Shown here: positions 21,745 to 31,956 of the stretch, piece after piece
Numbering within the stretch: the stretch's first letter is position 1
Layout of the letters: each line of letters begins with the position of its first letter
NCBI GenBank assembly: GCA_019894715.1
Contig: JAGXOA010000100.1
Span: forward strand, 1-37,120
DNA: 37,120 nucleotides
From: Promethearchaeota archaeon
GTDB taxonomy: Archaea; Asgardarchaeota; Lokiarchaeia; Sigyniarchaeales; SOKP01
Direction of reading: 5' to 3'
The notes under the pieces: model-generated
Seen by the model: only the letters and a program-made list of their open reading frames with translations
Told to the model about the DNA's origin: nothing
The model's database searches: none
Made by a program: the position numbers and the translations under genes

Positions 21745-21775
21745 AATACTTTAAAAAAACCGATTTTACATTTTA

Positions 21776-22021
21776 TTATTTTAAAAATTCTTTCATTACT
21801 ACATGTGTATTTGTATCTATAATGCCTTCAATTAAATCAATCTTTTTTGCAAAGGAATCGTAAAGTTCACCAATTTTAATTACTTCAATTTCAGCACAAA
21901 TATCATAATCTCCGGTTAATGAAAATATTTTCTTTATTTCTGGGATTTCATTTAGCTTATTTAATACTTCCAACATTGACTTATGTGATATTTTAAAAAA
22001 TATAAGAGCTTTAATTGACAT
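21776..22021 (-). CDS. Stand-alone AsnC/Lrp-type ligand-binding (RAM) domain protein
   Basis: The 81-aa protein is one RAM domain: strand ALIFFKIS, helix MLEVLNKLNEIPEI, then the ligand-loop motif SLTGDYDICAEIEV (the GxYD turn of Lrp/AsnC proteins), a second helix and the final strand IIDTNTHVVMKEF. It has no helix-turn-helix, so it is not itself a DNA-binding regulator. Stand-alone RAM proteins form dimers or octamers and sense amino acids. It is 27 bases downstream of the EamA transporter on the same strand. The transporter carries its own RAM domain, so a shared ligand or mixed oligomer is plausible. Confidence 0.9.
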   Translation of the reverse strand: MSIKALIFFKISHKSMLEVLNKLNEIPEIKKIFSLTGDYDICAEIEVIKIGELYDSFAKKIDLIEGIIDTNTHVVMKEFLK

Positions 22022-22048
22022 TTATTGTTATCACCTTTTTTTTTGATT

Positions 22049-23359
22049 TTACTTATTAATTTTATCTATAAATAATATATCAAGATTTTCTATACCATCT
22101 ATCTTTCTAATTTCTTTATTTATAAGTTTGTAGATATCTTTTATTGAATTTGTTTTTATATTTAATAATAAATCATGAGTTCCAATCAAAGATTGTACAC
22201 AACATACACCACTAAGTTTTAATAATTGAATAGGAATTGAATCTAATAATCCTTGTCTGAGATTTAGAAGGATATATGCATTCACCTTATTTTTAGTTTC
22301 ATGGGCGTACCTTAATAAAATTGAGATTATCAATAAAAATGTAACTATAATAAGAAATTCTAAAGGAAAATACTCACCTATGAAGATAATTCCTAGAATT
22401 AGAGAAAAAATTGGTTCAATAATTGTTAGAATACTAATCCACTGGCTATAAGTTAAATTATATGGACTCCAATTCACATTAGAAATAAACATTAAAGTAT
22501 ATGGAATTATAGTTGAGAAAACTATTAAAAGAACCATTCTCCAATCAAAAAGAATATTAAAGAAATTTGAAAATTCTGAAAAAAATAGAACGATTTCATT
22601 GTGTAAATTCAATTCGATTGGAAAAAAGTAAAATATTAGCATAAATGGAATCAGAGGTATAAAACCTAATATAAAAATTAGAGAGAGTTTTATCAACATT
22701 CTAATTATTTTAAAATCTTTATTTTTGTTGATTAAATTTACTTCTTTTGAAGTATATGTATCTTTACTAATACCTATATGTAAAAAAGACACACACACAG
22801 CAAATAGAACAATATAAATCCAACCTATGATTGAAGAACTAATATATGTCTGAGAAGGATCCTGGAATTTAATATAGCTAATGATTATTACACAGAATAT
22901 TAAAATAACAAGATAAAGTGTCTTAAAAATATCTAAATTCTCTAATCTAACTCCATGTTCATAAAAAGCTATAATAATTATGCTTAATTGAAATCCAACC
23001 AAAGCAAATGATATAGATGTCAGTTTTAGAGCAAAGAAATATCCAAAAATATGAAGAATAATTCCAAAAAATCCTAATAATAAAAAATACATAAAAAATC
23101 TGAAATTAGAGAAATCTTCATTTTTTTCTAAAACCAATCTTAATAATTGACCAATTGGTATTTTCTCTCTTTTTTTGTGTTTATTATTATAAATGGCTAA
23201 AAAAAGTGCTAGGAAAAATAAGAATATTCCAGAAATAAAAAATCTTTGAAAAGCAACCATAATTATTGACGTAAATCTGAATAAATCTGACGCTAAGATT
23301 GGAACTATACTCCAAAAAAAATTTGCTAAAATTATATAGAAGAAGTGTTTATTTTGCAT
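22049..23359 (-). CDS. EamA/DMT-family transporter fused to a C-terminal AsnC-type sensor domain
   Basis: The 436-aa protein has about ten membrane helices typical of the drug/metabolite transporter superfamily. It starts NKHFFYIILANFFWSIVPIL; the second repeat includes LTYSQWISILTIIEPIFSL, the usual EamA signature ending, then IFIGEYFPLEFL. The last roughly 76 residues (361-436) are soluble: AYILLNLRQG, a helix, then SLIGTHDLLLNIKT and the final strand ENLDILFID. This matches the Lrp/AsnC ligand-binding (RAM) fold, with GTHD in place of GxYD. The transporter would thus carry a cytosolic amino-acid-sensing domain. The exported metabolite is unknown. It is followed at 27 bases by the free RAM gene, forming a two-gene operon. 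Confidence 0.88.
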   Translation of the reverse strand: MQNKHFFYIILANFFWSIVPILASDLFRFTSIIMVAFQRFFISGIFLFFLALFLAIYNNKHKKREKIPIGQLLRLVLEKNEDFSNFRFFMYFLLLGFFGIILHIFGYFFALKLTSISFALVGFQLSIIIIAFYEHGVRLENLDIFKTLYLVILIFCVIIISYIKFQDPSQTYISSSIIGWIYIVLFAVCVSFLHIGISKDTYTSKEVNLINKNKDFKIIRMLIKLSLIFILGFIPLIPFMLIFYFFPIELNLHNEIVLFFSEFSNFFNILFDWRMVLLIVFSTIIPYTLMFISNVNWSPYNLTYSQWISILTIIEPIFSLILGIIFIGEYFPLEFLIIVTFLLIISILLRYAHETKNKVNAYILLNLRQGLLDSIPIQLLKLSGVCCVQSLIGTHDLLLNIKTNSIKDIYKLINKEIRKIDGIENLDILFIDKINK

Positions 23360-23724: not shown

Positions 23725-26700
23725 ATGAAGACTAAAAAGGATTTTAAAAAGAAACTATGGAGTTTAGTGTTAATATCATTTTTCTTACTCCAAAGCAACC
23801 AATTTTTAAATTTTAATCAAAATAAAATCAACCAAAGATTAAATAATGATAGCGAAAATGGAATTAACAATTCAGAGTACGAATCAGTTGATCCTTTAAT
23901 CATCGATGGCAGATCTTCTGCTCCTGGTTCTTACATGTGGGATGACTTGGTTAATAATGAATGGTGTTCTGGATCAGGAACAATAGATGATCCATATATA
24001 ATTGAAAATATTATGATTAATGGTGAGGGATCTAAATGGTGCTTATATATTCGTTTTTCCTCAGTCTATTTTATTATTAGAAAATGTAAATTTTATAACT
24101 CTAATGATTTCTCAGGAGAAGGAGGAGGTATATATACATTTCAAACATATAATGGAAGGATATTTAATAATAATTGTTCAAATAACCGTTATGGTGGAAT
24201 AAAAATTGAAGAAGGTAGTAATTTTAACATTTCTGGAAATTTATTAGATCAAAACGATTTGGGGGGGATATCATTATTAAAAGTCGAAGACAGTTATCTT
24301 TTATCCAATAATATAAATAATAATGGAGCAAATGGAATAAGTCTAACATCATCAAATTATAATACAATTGAAGAAAATATTATAAATAATTCCGTTAACG
24401 GAATATATATTTTTAATTGTGATGATAATCGTATTTCAAATAATTCCTTTAATAATAATGATCATAATGGATTGAGTTCACAATTTAGTGATTATAATAT
24501 CATATCTAAAAATCGTTTTAATTCAAATGGTTTAAATGGCATCTCTATATTATATGGAAGAAATAATTCTCTTTTAGAAAATTTGGTTTCCAAAAATAAT
24601 AAAAAAGGAATCTATACCGATGATTGTAATTATTCTCGAATTTCTAATAATATTGTTAAAAATAATTATGATCTCGGAATAGAGTTAAGAGATTGTAGAT
24701 ATAGTGTTATTGATGAGAATTTAATATCAAATAATAACGTTAATGGCATAAGAATCACAGGATCCTATAATAAAATATCGGAGAATATTATTGAAAAAAA
24801 TATTGGAGATGGAATTGTTTTATATGGTAGTTATTATGATGTTTTTAATAATGATATACTAAACAATAATTTAGCTGGCCTATATATGCAGAGTTGTAAA
24901 AATAGTAATATAAAAAGCAATCTAATTGAAAATAATAATTATGGTATTTTACTTACATCTGGGAACGAAAATAACATCATTTTAAAAAATTCAGTAAATT
25001 ATAATAGAGGAGGGATTTATCTTTGGGGTTCTGGAAATAATAATAATGAAATCTCAAGCAATAATATCAAATATAATCTATTAAATGGTATTGAAACAAG
25101 AGTAAATAGTAATAACAATATTATAACTTATAATCTTATAGAAGAAAATATTAATTTGGGTGTATTAATTTATTCAGATTTTAATACTATTTATAAGAAT
25201 TATTTAATTGGTAATAGAATTAATGCCTATGATTATGGTGATGATAATTATTGGGATAATGGTGTTTTCGGTAATTATTGGGATGATTATAATGGTATAG
25301 ATGAGGATGGGGATGAAATTGGTGATATTCCTTACTCTATTGCTGGTAGTTCTGGAAGTCGAGATAATTACCCAATTATTCATGCTATGGTTGATTTTGC
25401 CATATTTTACGAAGATATCTATTTCTCAATTAATGTGGGAGAATTAGACGTAAACGCGGAAATAACTAATATCGGATATGGCTATAAGAGTAATATTACA
25501 ATAAGCTTTTTTGAGAAAAATATTGATGGTTCGATTAAACAAATAGGTAATAATCATACAATAAATGGATTACTAAGGCATGAAAATGCTATAATCACTG
25601 AAAAATGGACACCTAAAATGCATTTTAGTATCTTTGTAATTATTGATCCTGAGAATAAAATCACAGAACTTAGTGAGTCTAATAATATAGCAGAAAGAGA
25701 ATATAGTGGTACATCTCCAATTGTTTATCATGTAACATCTAAATTTGGATCTTGGTTAGGAACAAATACAGTAGGTACGTTTATTACTAATATTGATTTA
25801 AATAATAAGTTTACTGCTAAAATAACAGATTTTGATGGTCCTGATGATGTAATTAAAGTTATATTTAAACTTAATGATATTTCTTTTGAAGGTAAAAAAA
25901 TTTCAGGGGAATTATGGGAATTTGATTTAAATTTATTGGATTTACATGGAGGAAAGAATTTTCTAGAAATATTCGCCTACGACGCAACAGGACATGTTTC
26001 TAAAGCAAAGAATGTAATAATTAAAGCTAAACAACTTCCTTTTTGGCTAAATGAAGTTCTAATAGGTATAGAAATAAAGTTTTTAGAAATTACGGTTAAT
26101 TTACTATCCCAATCATTAAATATTTCATTTAAATACCCTTATAAAAAAGATAAATCCACTGTTTTTGATAAAACTATTCCTAAAGACACAGAATTTTTGG
26201 GTGGAAAGAGCGCTAAATATAACTATAGTATGTTTTTTTCATTTGAATATTTCTTTTTAACAGGGATGGCAAGACTTACAACAAAAGGTTCATTATCAGG
26301 CAAATTATTTGGTTATATATTGGAAGGAACAATAACTTCACAAGCAAATTTAGATACTACAACATTAGATATAAAGAGTATTATGATATCTTTTTCACTT
26401 TCTTTAACTATACCGCTTGTAGAGCACGATGTAAAACATAATAAATGGCCAATTTCAGTTGATTGCAAAGTTACAGCTAAAGCAAAAATAACAGTTGAAG
26501 TAATGATGGAAGCTCACAATAAAGCATTAGAGTGGGTGTCATTTAAGATTATTACAGAAATCTCATTAAACGGACATTTTGGTATTAAAGTAGATCTTGG
26601 ATTTGTAGGTGGGGGATTAGATATCGATGTAGGAGGAACTGGAACATTCGAAATTATAATTGATGAAGATGATTTTGCTATGCATCTCTATATTGGATTT

Positions 26701-29700
26701 TATTTAAAATGGACAATTTCATGGAAATTTTTATTTCTAAAAGGTAGTTTTAGTGGGAAATTTAATTGGGATTACCAAGTTTTCTCTCCTGAACAAATAA
26801 ATGAAAATATCGATTATGAAGATTGGACTTTTACAAATAATAATTCAGATCCTATGGATTCGAGACCAAATATAGCCGTAGATTCAAATGGGAATGCTAT
26901 GATGGTCTGGACTCATACAAGATATCAGGAAAATGAGATGTATACCGATATATGTTATTCTATATGGAATGGAAATAGTTGGGGTGATTCTCAATTTGTT
27001 ACATATGATGATCAACCTGATTTCGACCCCTCTATAACTTATGATTCAAAAGGTAATGTTATGCTAGTCTGGTCTAGAATTACAGGAAATATGAGTTCAA
27101 TATCTCTTGATGAACCATATAAAATCCTAGAAACTCAGGAGATTGCATATTCCATTTGGGATGGGACTTTATGGACTCCTGTGCAACTAATTACTGATGA
27201 TTCCTATTCTAATGGTCGTGTAGTTGTTTCAAGTGATTCTAATGATAATTTTATAGCAGCTTGGGTTGGAGATCCAGATAATAATTTAACTACAACAGAT
27301 GATATGGAGATTTTTTATTCTACTTGGAATGGAAATAATTGGATTTCGAAAGAGTCATTGACAGATAATAATAATATGGATTATAGTCTTTCAATAGCTC
27401 ATAATTCAGAAGGAATAATAATTCTAAGTTGGTTAAGGGATATAGATGGTAATAGAACTACAACGAAAGATATTGAATTAAGATACACTTTATGGGATAA
27501 TGGTAATTGGATAGATTCAAGTGAAGTTACAACTTTAAATGAAGAAAAGGAAAGTCCATCAGTGACATTTGATAAAAATGATAATGCATTAATTACTTGG
27601 ATTGGAAGAGGTGAAAATGCCTCTAGAGTATATTTTGCAATCTTAGATAAACAAACAAATATTTGGAGTAAACCAGAAATTGTATATGAGGATCCATTTT
27701 TAGTCTATAATCCTATTATAAATGTTGATTCAGATAATAATGCTGTAATTACGTGGAGAGGATTTGAAGAAGAAGAAGTTGATAATTTTTATAACGCTGA
27801 AAATTCCTCCTCAAATTTCTATTTTGATGGAGAAATATGTTATGCGACTAAAGATCTTTCAAGGGATAATTCTATATGGAGTAATATGAAATATTTAACG
27901 AGAGATAATAAAACAGATTGGATGGTATCAGCTGCAATTATTGAAGGTCAAAGTAATGATCTTCTCTTAGTATGGGAAAAAGATGGTGAGAATTTTAATA
28001 AAGTCCATGAAATCAAATCAGATCTTTCAATAATACCAACAGATATATCCTTTTCTAATTCCTATCCAAACGAAGAAGAGATTATTGATATAAATGCATT
28101 AATTAGAAATAATGGTGATATTCCTGCAAATGATATAAACATATCTTTCTATGATGATCATCCTGATTATGAAGGAATTTTCATTAGTAGTAGAATAATC
28201 TCTTTTTTAGATTATGATTCCTCTCAAAATGTTTCGATTCCTTGGCAAGTAAAAAGAGGTGTTAATAACATTTATATCAAAATTGATCCAATAAATACAA
28301 TTGAAGAATTAAACGAAACTAACAATATTGCTTTTAATAGGCTAATGGTGTGTCCTGATTTATCAATCATAGATAATAATATAATTTTTTCAAATAATGA
28401 TCCACAAGAAGGAGATCTAATAACAGTTGAAGCACAAATTTATAACAATGGTGGTATGATTGCTGAGAATATACCTCTTGAGTTTTTCTTAAATAGTAAC
28501 AGTATAGATAAAATATTAATTCCATCATTAAAACCAAATGAAATCATTCTAGTCTCTACAGATTTCATTGTTGGTGCAAATAAAAACAAAATGACTATTA
28601 TAATCGATAAATTTAATGATATTATAGAATGGAACGAAAATAATAATGAAGCAACAAAAGAATTAAATATTTTTCCGGATCTTGATATAAATAGTTTCAC
28701 TCTTTCAAATAATTACATAACTTATGGAGAAAATATAGATTGCGAGTTAATATTAAGAAATGTTGGTAAAGCTAGTGCTTATAATATATTTATTGAACTA
28801 TTTAATGGAAATCCTTATGAAAATGGTGAGAAAATTGATAATTATACGTTAAATGAACTTAAAATTGGAAACCAAGAAATTATCAATTTTCATTTCGTAC
28901 CTTCTATAGGAATCCATCAAATATTTATTATTATTGATAGAGTAAACATTATAATGGAAATAAATGAAGATAATAATTTGGCTTTCCATGAATTAGCAGT
29001 AACCGCTTTACCTGATTTATATTTTGAAAATTATATGATTACTTCAGATACTGGATCAAAATCTATCAGTATAACTATTAGAAATAACGGATTAATTGGA
29101 GCTACTGGTATTATTATCAATATTTATGATGGAGAAAATTTTATAAGTGAGAATTTGATATTTAATCATTTAGTCTTACATATTGGTCCAGGTGAGACTA
29201 GAAGTTTTAGTTTTAAAATAATTGAAGAACTTAAAGAAAAATTTATTGGCATTACTCTTGATCAGGAAGATTTAATTAACGAAACAAATGAAAACAATAA
29301 TATTTTAATTATTGACTATTTAGAGATACCTAAAATAAATGCAGGACCTGACCAAGTATCTTATGAAGGAGATTCAATTCAATTTTTAGCATCCATATCC
29401 ACAGAACTTATTGAAGAATATGATTTTGTATGGGATTTTGGAGATTCTCTCTATGGACATGGAATAAGTATACAACATCAATATCTTGATAATGGTGAAT
29501 TTCAAGTAACTTTGACTGTAATAGGTCCAAATTATTATGGAATAGATATCCTTTTGGTATCCGTGTTAAATTCTAAACCAATAGTAAATGCGGGTTCAGA
29601 TATGGGATGTAATGAGGGTGATGAAATAACTTATAGTGGAAGTTTTTATGATATCGGTTATTTTGATACTCATAAAATTATATGGAATTTTGGTGATGGT

Positions 29701-31302
29701 TCTACTGCTATAGATACTTTAACACCAACACATAGTTATGAGGATAATGGAAATTATAATGTAACTTTAACAGTTACCGATAAGGACGGAGCTATTGGTA
29801 TTGATGAACTTCAAATCATGGTTTATAATGTGAATCCAATTGCAGATTCAGGTTTTAATCAGATTGTAAATGAAGATGATATTGTTGAATTTACTGGATC
29901 ATTCTTCGATCCTGGAATTAATGATACTTATACTATTCAATGGGATTTTGGAGATAGCAACAGAATTAGTAATAGTCTGAATCCATCGTATGTATATAGT
30001 AATTGTGGAAATTATAATGTAACTTTAATAGTTACTGATGATGATGGGGGGACTGGAATTCATTATCATACAATTACTGTTCAAAATGTATATCCAATTG
30101 CTGATGCCGGTTTAGATATAGAATGTAATGAGGGAGAAAAAATAATCTTTAATGGTGAAAAATCATGGGATACTCCTTCAGATCTTCCCTATCTTACATT
30201 TTTATGGGATTTTGGGGATGGATACAATGACACAGGTAAAATTAAAGAACATATTTATTCAAATCCAGGTATTTACAAAGTTAATTTAACCGTATTAGAC
30301 GATGATAACTACATGGGTACTGATTTGCTTACTATTGTTGTTTTAGATAATACACCACCTCAAACATCCTTGTCAATAGATGAATTTTCTTTTGATGAAC
30401 TTGGAAATATTATTATTAAAACAATATCTAATTTCACTTTAGTAACTATTGATGGCTATTCCGATATTTCTAGTACCTTTTATAGAATTAATCAGGGAGA
30501 ATGGATAGAATATATTGCTCTTTTTAATATAATTAATCTTGTAGGGAATATATCAATTGAATTTTACAGTATTGATAGTGCAGGAAATATAGAACCTATA
30601 AATTACTTGAATGTAATATTGAAAGATGATTTTAATATTTTCTATGAAGAAATTATTGATAAATTAGATTTTCTAACATTATTTATGAAAGATAATCTAC
30701 ATTGGCGAATTAGTCGTTGTTCAACTTATAAATTATATTCCATACAAAAACATTTACAAAAAGTAAATCATTTTTTTAAGAATTCTAATATAGATCTTAC
30801 TTTAATTCATATAAAAATAGCTAGTCAACATTTAAATATTGTTTATTATAAAGTTAAATGTTTAACTAAGATTGGAATTATTTCAGCAGATAAAGGAACT
30901 TTCATATTAAATGAACTAAATGATCTAAAAATTCTTATGATATATTTAAAATCTGTTGTAATTGGGGAAGAAATTGCTTATAAAATTGCTTATATTGAAG
31001 AGGATATAGTAAATCTTATTTCATACATAGAGGATTCAATTAAAATCAAGAATTCTTGTTATTTTACATATTCATTATATTCAACTATCAAATTACTTGA
31101 TTGTATCCTTTTAAAGGCCTTAAATAATAAATATCTAAATTGTTTGTTATCATATTCTCAATTAAAATTACAAAAAATAATAAATTTCGTTGAAAAATTG
31201 TTAATGAAGGAAAAAATAAATCAAAACTCAGCATATTATATCATGAATAAAATAGATAATATTATCCAATCAATTGAACAATTGAAACCAGATTTAATTT
31301 AA
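23725..31302 (+). CDS. Giant secreted multidomain protein (NosD beta-helix, propeller, CARDB, PKD)
   Basis: This 2525-aa protein begins with a basic and hydrophobic signal (KKLWSLVLISFFLLQ). Approximate domain order: 73-552 right-handed beta-helix with NosD/PbH1 repeats, closing with FGNYWDDYNGIDEDGDEIGD; 556-661 first CARDB; 662-780 Ig-like; 780-1030 beta-rich domain; 1042-1428 about seven repeats of the xxxVDSNGNAMMVW type, probably a propeller; 1433-1869 four CARDB domains (ending in ELNETNNIA-like motifs); 1868-2209 four PKD domains (WDFGD, WNFGDGS, WDFGDS, WDFGDG); 2210-2300 Ig-like; 2300-2525 helical tail with several cysteines. No C-terminal membrane helix or sorting signal is visible, so attachment is unclear. 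Probably an S-layer-associated or adhesive glycan-binding protein. It is flanked by direct repeats. Confidence 0.9.
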   Translation: MKTKKDFKKKLWSLVLISFFLLQSNQFLNFNQNKINQRLNNDSENGINNSEYESVDPLIIDGRSSAPGSYMWDDLVNNEWCSGSGTIDDPYIIENIMINGEGSKWCLYIRFSSVYFIIRKCKFYNSNDFSGEGGGIYTFQTYNGRIFNNNCSNNRYGGIKIEEGSNFNISGNLLDQNDLGGISLLKVEDSYLLSNNINNNGANGISLTSSNYNTIEENIINNSVNGIYIFNCDDNRISNNSFNNNDHNGLSSQFSDYNIISKNRFNSNGLNGISILYGRNNSLLENLVSKNNKKGIYTDDCNYSRISNNIVKNNYDLGIELRDCRYSVIDENLISNNNVNGIRITGSYNKISENIIEKNIGDGIVLYGSYYDVFNNDILNNNLAGLYMQSCKNSNIKSNLIENNNYGILLTSGNENNIILKNSVNYNRGGIYLWGSGNNNNEISSNNIKYNLLNGIETRVNSNNNIITYNLIEENINLGVLIYSDFNTIYKNYLIGNRINAYDYGDDNYWDNGVFGNYWDDYNGIDEDGDEIGDIPYSIAGSSGSRDNYPIIHAMVDFAIFYEDIYFSINVGELDVNAEITNIGYGYKSNITISFFEKNIDGSIKQIGNNHTINGLLRHENAIITEKWTPKMHFSIFVIIDPENKITELSESNNIAEREYSGTSPIVYHVTSKFGSWLGTNTVGTFITNIDLNNKFTAKITDFDGPDDVIKVIFKLNDISFEGKKISGELWEFDLNLLDLHGGKNFLEIFAYDATGHVSKAKNVIIKAKQLPFWLNEVLIGIEIKFLEITVNLLSQSLNISFKYPYKKDKSTVFDKTIPKDTEFLGGKSAKYNYSMFFSFEYFFLTGMARLTTKGSLSGKLFGYILEGTITSQANLDTTTLDIKSIMISFSLSLTIPLVEHDVKHNKWPISVDCKVTAKAKITVEVMMEAHNKALEWVSFKIITEISLNGHFGIKVDLGFVGGGLDIDVGGTGTFEIIIDEDDFAMHLYIGFYLKWTISWKFLFLKGSFSGKFNWDYQVFSPEQINENIDYEDWTFTNNNSDPMDSRPNIAVDSNGNAMMVWTHTRYQENEMYTDICYSIWNGNSWGDSQFVTYDDQPDFDPSITYDSKGNVMLVWSRITGNMSSISLDEPYKILETQEIAYSIWDGTLWTPVQLITDDSYSNGRVVVSSDSNDNFIAAWVGDPDNNLTTTDDMEIFYSTWNGNNWISKESLTDNNNMDYSLSIAHNSEGIIILSWLRDIDGNRTTTKDIELRYTLWDNGNWIDSSEVTTLNEEKESPSVTFDKNDNALITWIGRGENASRVYFAILDKQTNIWSKPEIVYEDPFLVYNPIINVDSDNNAVITWRGFEEEEVDNFYNAENSSSNFYFDGEICYATKDLSRDNSIWSNMKYLTRDNKTDWMVSAAIIEGQSNDLLLVWEKDGENFNKVHEIKSDLSIIPTDISFSNSYPNEEEIIDINALIRNNGDIPANDINISFYDDHPDYEGIFISSRIISFLDYDSSQNVSIPWQVKRGVNNIYIKIDPINTIEELNETNNIAFNRLMVCPDLSIIDNNIIFSNNDPQEGDLITVEAQIYNNGGMIAENIPLEFFLNSNSIDKILIPSLKPNEIILVSTDFIVGANKNKMTIIIDKFNDIIEWNENNNEATKELNIFPDLDINSFTLSNNYITYGENIDCELILRNVGKASAYNIFIELFNGNPYENGEKIDNYTLNELKIGNQEIINFHFVPSIGIHQIFIIIDRVNIIMEINEDNNLAFHELAVTALPDLYFENYMITSDTGSKSISITIRNNGLIGATGIIINIYDGENFISENLIFNHLVLHIGPGETRSFSFKIIEELKEKFIGITLDQEDLINETNENNNILIIDYLEIPKINAGPDQVSYEGDSIQFLASISTELIEEYDFVWDFGDSLYGHGISIQHQYLDNGEFQVTLTVIGPNYYGIDILLVSVLNSKPIVNAGSDMGCNEGDEITYSGSFYDIGYFDTHKIIWNFGDGSTAIDTLTPTHSYEDNGNYNVTLTVTDKDGAIGIDELQIMVYNVNPIADSGFNQIVNEDDIVEFTGSFFDPGINDTYTIQWDFGDSNRISNSLNPSYVYSNCGNYNVTLIVTDDDGGTGIHYHTITVQNVYPIADAGLDIECNEGEKIIFNGEKSWDTPSDLPYLTFLWDFGDGYNDTGKIKEHIYSNPGIYKVNLTVLDDDNYMGTDLLTIVVLDNTPPQTSLSIDEFSFDELGNIIIKTISNFTLVTIDGYSDISSTFYRINQGEWIEYIALFNIINLVGNISIEFYSIDSAGNIEPINYLNVILKDDFNIFYEEIIDKLDFLTLFMKDNLHWRISRCSTYKLYSIQKHLQKVNHFFKNSNIDLTLIHIKIASQHLNIVYYKVKCLTKIGIISADKGTFILNELNDLKILMIYLKSVVIGEEIAYKIAYIEEDIVNLISYIEDSIKIKNSCYFTYSLYSTIKLLDCILLKALNNKYLNCLLSYSQLKLQKIINFVEKLLMKEKINQNSAYYIMNKIDNIIQSIEQLKPDLI

Positions 31303-31398: not shown

Positions 31399-31446
31399 AA
31401 TTATTATAGTTAAAGTATACAAAAATTTATTTTTAATATGAAAAAA
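31399..31446. repeat. 48-bp direct repeat, right copy
   Basis: This copy matches 23418-23465 at 43 of 48 bases and includes the promoter-proximal bases and first three codons of the DUF6125 gene (ATG 31438). With the left copy it flanks a segment of about 8 kb that carries only the giant secreted protein. Confidence 0.65.
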
Positions 31447-31956
31447 GATTTAGAAATCCTCTCAAAAGAGGAATTAATAGATTATATTGAGGATCTTTCA
31501 AAAAATTGGTTAGCAATTGATGGAACTTGGTTTTTATCTGTAGAAAGAAAATATGGGACGGATGTAGCAATTAAGTTAGATGAACAATCATGGAAAATCT
31601 TTAGTCCTATTGAAGCAAAACGCATTATGAAAAGATTTAATATTCCTGAAAATGGGGGTATTTCTGCATTGGCTAAAGCATTAAAATATAGAGTTTATTC
31701 AAATATTAATAAGCAAGAAATAATTGAAATTTCAGAGAATCGTTGTGTTTTTAGAATGAATAACTGTAGAGTTCAAACAGCAAGGAAAAATAAGAATTTA
31801 CCTGATTTTCCATGTAAATCTGTTGGTATAATTGAATATTCTGAATTTGCCAAGACGATTGATCCAAGAATTGAAGTACGATGCATATGCTGTCCTCCAG
31901 ATGATCATCCTGAAGATTATTATTGTGCTTGGGAATTTAAATTAGAAAAAAAATAA
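31438..31956 (+). CDS. DUF6125 family protein
   Basis: The 172-aa cytosolic protein fits the DUF6125 family as I recall it: LSKEELIDYIEDLSKNWLA and DGTWFLSVERKYG (residues 8-40), SPIEAKRIMKRFNIPENGG, then VFRMNNCRVQTARK, LPDFPCKSVGIIEYSEFAK, TIDPRIEVRC and the C-terminal CCPPDDHPEDYYCAWEF. Conserved cysteines and histidine in the second half suggest metal or cofactor binding. Family members occur in anaerobic bacteria and archaea; biochemical role unknown. It sits directly after the giant gene but has its own promoter-like leader, within the right direct repeat. Full length. Confidence 0.85.
   Translation: MKKDLEILSKEELIDYIEDLSKNWLAIDGTWFLSVERKYGTDVAIKLDEQSWKIFSPIEAKRIMKRFNIPENGGISALAKALKYRVYSNINKQEIIEISENRCVFRMNNCRVQTARKNKNLPDFPCKSVGIIEYSEFAKTIDPRIEVRCICCPPDDHPEDYYCAWEFKLEKK

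Follow-up and report, generated by a model that had tools for sequence, protein, structure and literature searches.

RAM domains, the effector-binding part of the Lrp/AsnC proteins, form dimers, with amino acids bound at the interfaces between these dimers, and the stand-alone RAM protein DM1 forms a hetero-octamer in vitro with the full-length Lrp protein FL11 (PMC2995911). Such stand-alone proteins, exemplified by the solved structures of DM1 (2e1a), STS042 (2zbc) and TTHA0845 (2djw), have not been reported as partners of transporters and their role has been called unclear (PMC2995911). A genetic link of the RAM domain with transporters of the EamA family is known from Pseudomonas, where the Lrp protein PA2577 is the repressor of the EamA gene PA2576 (PMC8707732). 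Among transporters more generally, fused regulatory domains have been described in MetNI, CorB and MgtE, the C2 domain of the methionine importer MetNI being a cytosolic amino-acid-binding domain that is fused to a transporter component and dimerises around its ligand, and control by a small separate cytosolic sensor is known from AmtB-GlnK, whose genes are linked, and from SbtA-SbtB (PMC10710835). In this 2023 review of transporter control by such domains and sensors, neither Lrp nor DMT occurs (PMC10710835), and AsnC goes unmentioned in a study of transporters in Asgard archaea that includes many DMT proteins (PMC7997004).

The locus described here lies in a 37,120-nucleotide stretch of an Asgard archaeal contig, hereafter the window, and comprises the following features.

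22049..23359, minus strand: EamA/DMT transporter with a C-terminal RAM domain, 436 aa (Pfam, AlphaFold2, Foldseek, Asgard profile search)
22289..23359, minus strand: ten-helix DMT membrane part, residues 1-357 (PF00892, AlphaFold2 helices, Foldseek, K/R counts)
22052..22288, minus strand: RAM domain of the fusion, residues 358-436, predicted to lie in the cytosol (PF01037, AlphaFold2 fold, profile match to 2e1a)
22022..22048, minus strand: 27-bp spacer with a Shine-Dalgarno-like GGTGAT (22030-22035), 8 nt 5' of the next ATG (sequence)
21776..22021, minus strand: free (stand-alone) RAM protein, 81 aa (PF01037, RAM fold, linked Lokiarchaeal orthologues)
21753..21759, minus strand: oligo-T run past the free RAM gene, a possible archaeal terminator (by eye)

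The fused and the free RAM genes stand on the same strand, 27 bp apart, and look like a two-gene operon, flanked on one side by a convergent gene for a CBS-domain protein and on the other by a divergent gene for a giant surface-type protein. The latter (window 23725-31302, plus strand) encodes 2525 aa rich in repeats, in which NosD-like beta-helix repeats and PKD-type domains were recognized by eye. A DUF6125 gene (8.8e-78) is also found near the module (window 31438-31956, plus strand), and directly adjoins it in genome G017 (L150:9599-10129).

The free gene encodes a single RAM domain of 81 aa without helix-turn-helix (HTH), fits the class of stand-alone RAM proteins (about 75-85 aa), and resembles DM1, STS042 and TTHA0845 in length, fold (TM 0.84-0.92) and profile similarity; unlike them, it is paired with a transporter gene. 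The association of RAM with an EamA carrier is shared with PA2577-PA2576, but that link is transcriptional and acts through DNA binding, whereas the present module is devoid of HTH and has a RAM domain as a part of the carrier itself. The membrane part has the ten-helix DMT fold in common with YddG (5i20), LicB (7paf) and SLC35B1, and none of the matched structures bears a RAM tail. MetNI, in contrast, is an ABC importer with a domain of another family and without a separate free copy of it, and the sensors GlnK and SbtB belong to the PII family and dock on a bare transporter, whereas here transporter and sensor have homologous domains. Fusing regulatory domains to transporters is a known principle; the new element is an EamA-RAM fusion paired with a free RAM, of which no description was found in the open-access literature, and for which we claim neither priority nor absence outside Asgard archaea. 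The sequence-only reading of this DNA had considered RAM domains as normally attached to HTH repressors, a statement too narrow in view of the HTH-less stand-alone proteins DM1, STS042 and TTHA0845, already known; its novelty stands for the fusion to a transporter and the pairing of the genes.

The last ~79 residues of the transporter constitute a Lrp/AsnC RAM domain. Pfam assigned residues 7-161 to EamA (PF00892, 6.8e-10, 39.8 bits for a cut-off of 28.2) and residues 372-430 to AsnC_trans_reg (PF01037), with 25.1 bits for the full protein, above the curated cut-off of 25, and 29.6 bits when the tail was scanned alone. The A1 family profile matches DM1 (2e1a) within the tail (1.7e-13). The 81-aa protein is itself assigned to PF01037 (5e-13, 49.2 bits), as the earlier reading had proposed for the neighbouring gene, and shows profile similarity to the stand-alone RAM structures 2cvi, 2e1a, 2zbc and 2djw; no HTH domain was matched by Pfam in either protein at E<=1.

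An AlphaFold2 model was computed from a 25-sequence alignment in which the two genes were joined, the intervening stop codons being read as glycine (pTM 0.81, mean pLDDT 84.8). Ten membrane helices are followed in it by two domains of beta-alpha-beta-beta-alpha-beta topology, at 359-437 and 449-526. For the membrane part, Foldseek returned the DMT structures SLC35B1, YddG (5i20), Vrg4 and LicB (7paf), and for the RAM part the stand-alone proteins 2e1a (TM 0.92, rmsd 1.1), 2djw (TM 0.87) and 2zbc (TM 0.84), the modelled RAM folds lying 1.1-1.3 Å from the solved ones. Pfam, the profile match to 2e1a and the predicted fold agree on a C-terminal RAM domain carried by a ten-helix DMT transporter, which bears out the main structural claim of the sequence-only reading; its boundaries for the domain (about 361-436) proved correct within a few residues, its GTHD motif corresponds to G393-D396, and the structure prediction it had called for gives the tail (residues 359-437) a RAM fold. 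Lysines and arginines are concentrated in the predicted inner loops (14, vs 1 in the outer loops), from which the RAM tail is predicted to be cytosolic, and the model is that of a ten-helix DMT fold with both ends in the cytosol. A second model, for a f8-type protein (10 sequences, pLDDT 63, pTM 0.48), is poor in its membrane part and has both RAM domains folded.

The architecture is widespread. A profile built from 35 fused proteins and searched against 228 Asgard genomes retrieved the EamA-RAM fusion, nearly always over the full length, in 134 of them, representing 41 of 62 genera. The survey of relatives proposed by the earlier reading thus recovered the fusion both at large scale and close by, a Lokiarchaeota MAG encoding it over the full length with 76% identity to the window protein. 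In Pfam at E<=0.01, RAM was detected in 33 and EamA in 21 of the 35 family members, the EamA domain of f8-type members being undetected by single-sequence search. In eight Lokiarchaeal genomes, the remaining EamA proteins are nearly all encoded by frames of 282-360 aa, and only the fused ones reach ~440. Plasmid records, searched for the fusion, gave no match. That a frameshift or a chimeric join merely placed a RAM domain on an EamA gene is practically inconceivable and was rejected, since the same architecture recurs in 134 genomes, mostly without internal stops and including the single-contig assemblies G037, G070, G084, G125 and G180. The profiles of the Lokiarchaeal and of the f8/f23-type membrane parts are only weakly similar (hhalign probability 6.5), so that two separate DMT lineages may have acquired a RAM domain.

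The association of the fused gene with a free RAM gene is equally recurrent. The reading of 126 long RAM-tailed frames led us to set aside one (L004, a tandem Lrp and not a transporter), leaving 125 fused loci, 115 of which have a free RAM gene on the same strand within 400 bp: downstream in 69, upstream in 39, on both sides in four, and with two downstream copies in three. The gaps between fused and free genes are mostly shorter than ~45 bp, and the genes overlap in some loci. Among the ten loci devoid of a near free RAM, four are cut or at contig ends (L069, L090, L097, L100), two are real or unexplained (L031, L099), and four form the f4 group, where in three of the four genomes a free RAM lies at a distance of 2-5 kb, on the contig and strand of the fused gene. 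A conserved read-through of the stop that would join the genes, which are spaced in frame in the window, was ruled out by the gaps, which cover all three frames across loci.

Some loci depart from the common layout. In the f4 group (L151, L153, L154, L155) the module extends over several kb, close to genes for a GH4-like glycosidase (by eye), an amidase and a KaiC/GvpD-like ATPase, and these neighbours possibly hint at a substrate. The flanking genes beyond the pair differ between genomes and, not being conserved, do not allow the substrate to be inferred. Loci L132, L137 and L142, of families f21 and f25, have the fused gene flanked on either side by free RAM genes, of which the downstream ones form a long separate branch, and an apparently decayed second free-RAM copy with an internal TGA is found beside the module at G054:C15:33858-34043.

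Presence and absence of the two genes also go together. Within the Lokiarchaeal family, the linked free RAM (at least 107 bits) was detected in all eight fusion-bearing genomes tested and in none of the 14 fusion-less ones (Fisher p 3e-6, treating genomes as independent and ignoring their relatedness). The best match in the latter reached 69 bits and is a different stand-alone RAM, while HTH-bearing Lrp proteins are retained. Since fusion-bearing and fusion-less genomes occur together inside genera g2, g6 and g8, the pair was gained or lost jointly more than once. The free RAM appears to be reserved for the transporter, as it is lost with it while the HTH-bearing Lrp proteins stay. Evolutionary distances correlate between the carrier, the fused RAM and the free RAM (r 0.68-0.97), as expected from vertical co-inheritance.

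Trees of 133 and 54 RAM domains were used to compare the fused with the free ones. The two kinds separate, with 5 changes compared to 44.6 by shuffling, which excludes that the fused domain is a recent copy of its neighbour, and to judge from these trees they are old, separate paralogues. In the reduced tree, the fused RAMs fall on one side of a branch with weak support (28/9), making a single origin of the fusion possible. Their signatures are likewise different. The free RAM conserves a TGxYD/Thr signature phylum-wide (T36 94-96%, G37 97-100%, D40 92-100%, T72 84-100%), whereas the fused RAM conserves the Gly (100%) and the Asp (94-96%), and in its Lokiarchaeal version the two Thr are replaced, by Ile/Val/Ala and by Ile. 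With the conserved adjacency and the joint gain and loss, the age and contrasted signatures of these paralogues make it well supported, at the level of sequence comparison, that the fused transporter and the free RAM form a functional pair.

The reading we prefer, and hold to be marginally probable, is that the free RAM assembles on the cytosolic RAM of the carrier and sets its activity by binding a small effector molecule, probably an amino acid. We infer a physical heteroassembly in which the free RAM would pair with the fused tail through the usual RAM-RAM interface, as the same chemistry is displayed by the DM1-FL11 hetero-octamer. The free RAM, having kept the TGxYD/Thr signature, would be the sensor and would bind the effector, probably an amino acid or a related metabolite, whereas the Lokiarchaeal fused RAM, having lost the threonines, would mainly serve as dock and transducer. 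Effector binding would then alter the RAM assembly and thereby the activity of the carrier, with either sign of regulation conceivable. The DMT superfamily comprises importers as well as exporters, LicB being a choline importer, and the putative substrate might accordingly move in either direction. The sequence-only reading, which suggested direct, allosteric control of metabolite export by the sensed amino acid, is thus supported in part: its amino-acid ligand, the export and the allostery would each be one possibility within this scheme. In the AlphaFold2 model, both RAM domains taken together loosely resemble two-domain alpha-beta barrels, NirDL and PenE among them (TM 0.44-0.49 to target, chains tethered), as expected if they were modelled next to each other in the manner of a RAM dimer; this association is only suggestive, because the tether through the read-through stops favours it and the tethered model gives no interface error estimate for the RAM-RAM contact. 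Extended to the whole phylum, the preferred reading would define an ancient class of DMT carriers, found across the Asgard archaea and gated directly by metabolites, with hetero-assembly of a dedicated free RAM and a built-in RAM opening or closing transport, a generalisation that we advance tentatively, as falling a little short of an even chance.

The main rival, which we regard as rather unlikely, places the output in transcription: depending on the state of transport or of the ligand, the tail would retain the free RAM at the membrane, and once set free this RAM would act on Lrp-type transcription factors by forming hetero-oligomers with them. The DM1-FL11 hetero-octamers show that Lrp regulators can take up stand-alone RAMs (PMC2995911), HTH-bearing Lrp proteins are encoded in the genome of the window, and GlnK offers the precedent of a small sensor encoded beside its transporter and sequestered at the membrane (PMC10710835). 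Such signalling to transcription factors would leave an identical sequence footprint. It fits less well with the loss of the free RAM along with the transporter in genomes that keep their HTH-bearing Lrp proteins, and with the retention of the fused domain even where a neighbouring RAM was not found.

A purely structural role, in which the tail and its free counterpart act as a scaffold for oligomerisation or stability of the carrier and sense no ligand, appears unlikely. Dimerising and multimerising are basic properties of RAM domains (PMC2995911) and the Lokiarchaeal fused RAM is devoid of both conserved threonines, but the 84-100% phylum-wide conservation of the TGxYD/Thr signature in the free RAM is more than a scaffold would need, and the rest of the EamA proteins in these genomes (282-360 aa) almost all do without such an appendage. 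A catalytic function of the two RAMs, linked to transport and conceived after the catalytic Lrp-like pairs AhbA/AhbB (sirohaem decarboxylase, PMC4145669) and NirDL, or after the hydrolytic activity reported for a P. furiosus stand-alone RAM (cited in PMC2995911), is very improbable, since the NirDL structure, although among the top Foldseek matches for both RAMs together, reflects a common two-domain barrel, and the conserved residues are those of the RAM signature, with no further catalytic set in the alignments.

The pairing provides stand-alone RAM proteins with a dedicated partner in more than 100 genomes and turns their role into a question testable with two small genes. If the preferred reading is true, it would give these proteins a physiological function and would be the first role of a Lrp/AsnC sensor in which a transporter, and not transcription, is gated, shifting this sensor from DNA to the membrane and adding a third kind to the CBS- and PII-type control of transporters. 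The module is moreover a conserved trait of the Asgard archaea, the nearest archaea to eukaryotes.

Other RAM architectures were encountered in these genomes. A second lineage of stand-alone RAM proteins, of 77-80 aa and with the motif VTGGIDIIVKVEG, is present in the Lokiarchaeal genus g8 (L156:3025-3267, L157:3153-3386, L159:3294-3536); it has no fixed neighbour and occurs also where the transporter module is absent. In the Lokiarchaeal genome G037, an 866-aa protein (L158:50-2650, minus strand) combines an N-terminal AsnC-type HTH and a RAM with ~740 residues without Pfam match. The tandem double Lrp of 317 aa from the window's own genome (L004:350-1303, minus strand) is divergent from an adenosylhomocysteinase-like gene (by eye); this partner gene is also found in L160, and in genome G071 the same neighbour stands opposite a Lrp-type gene.
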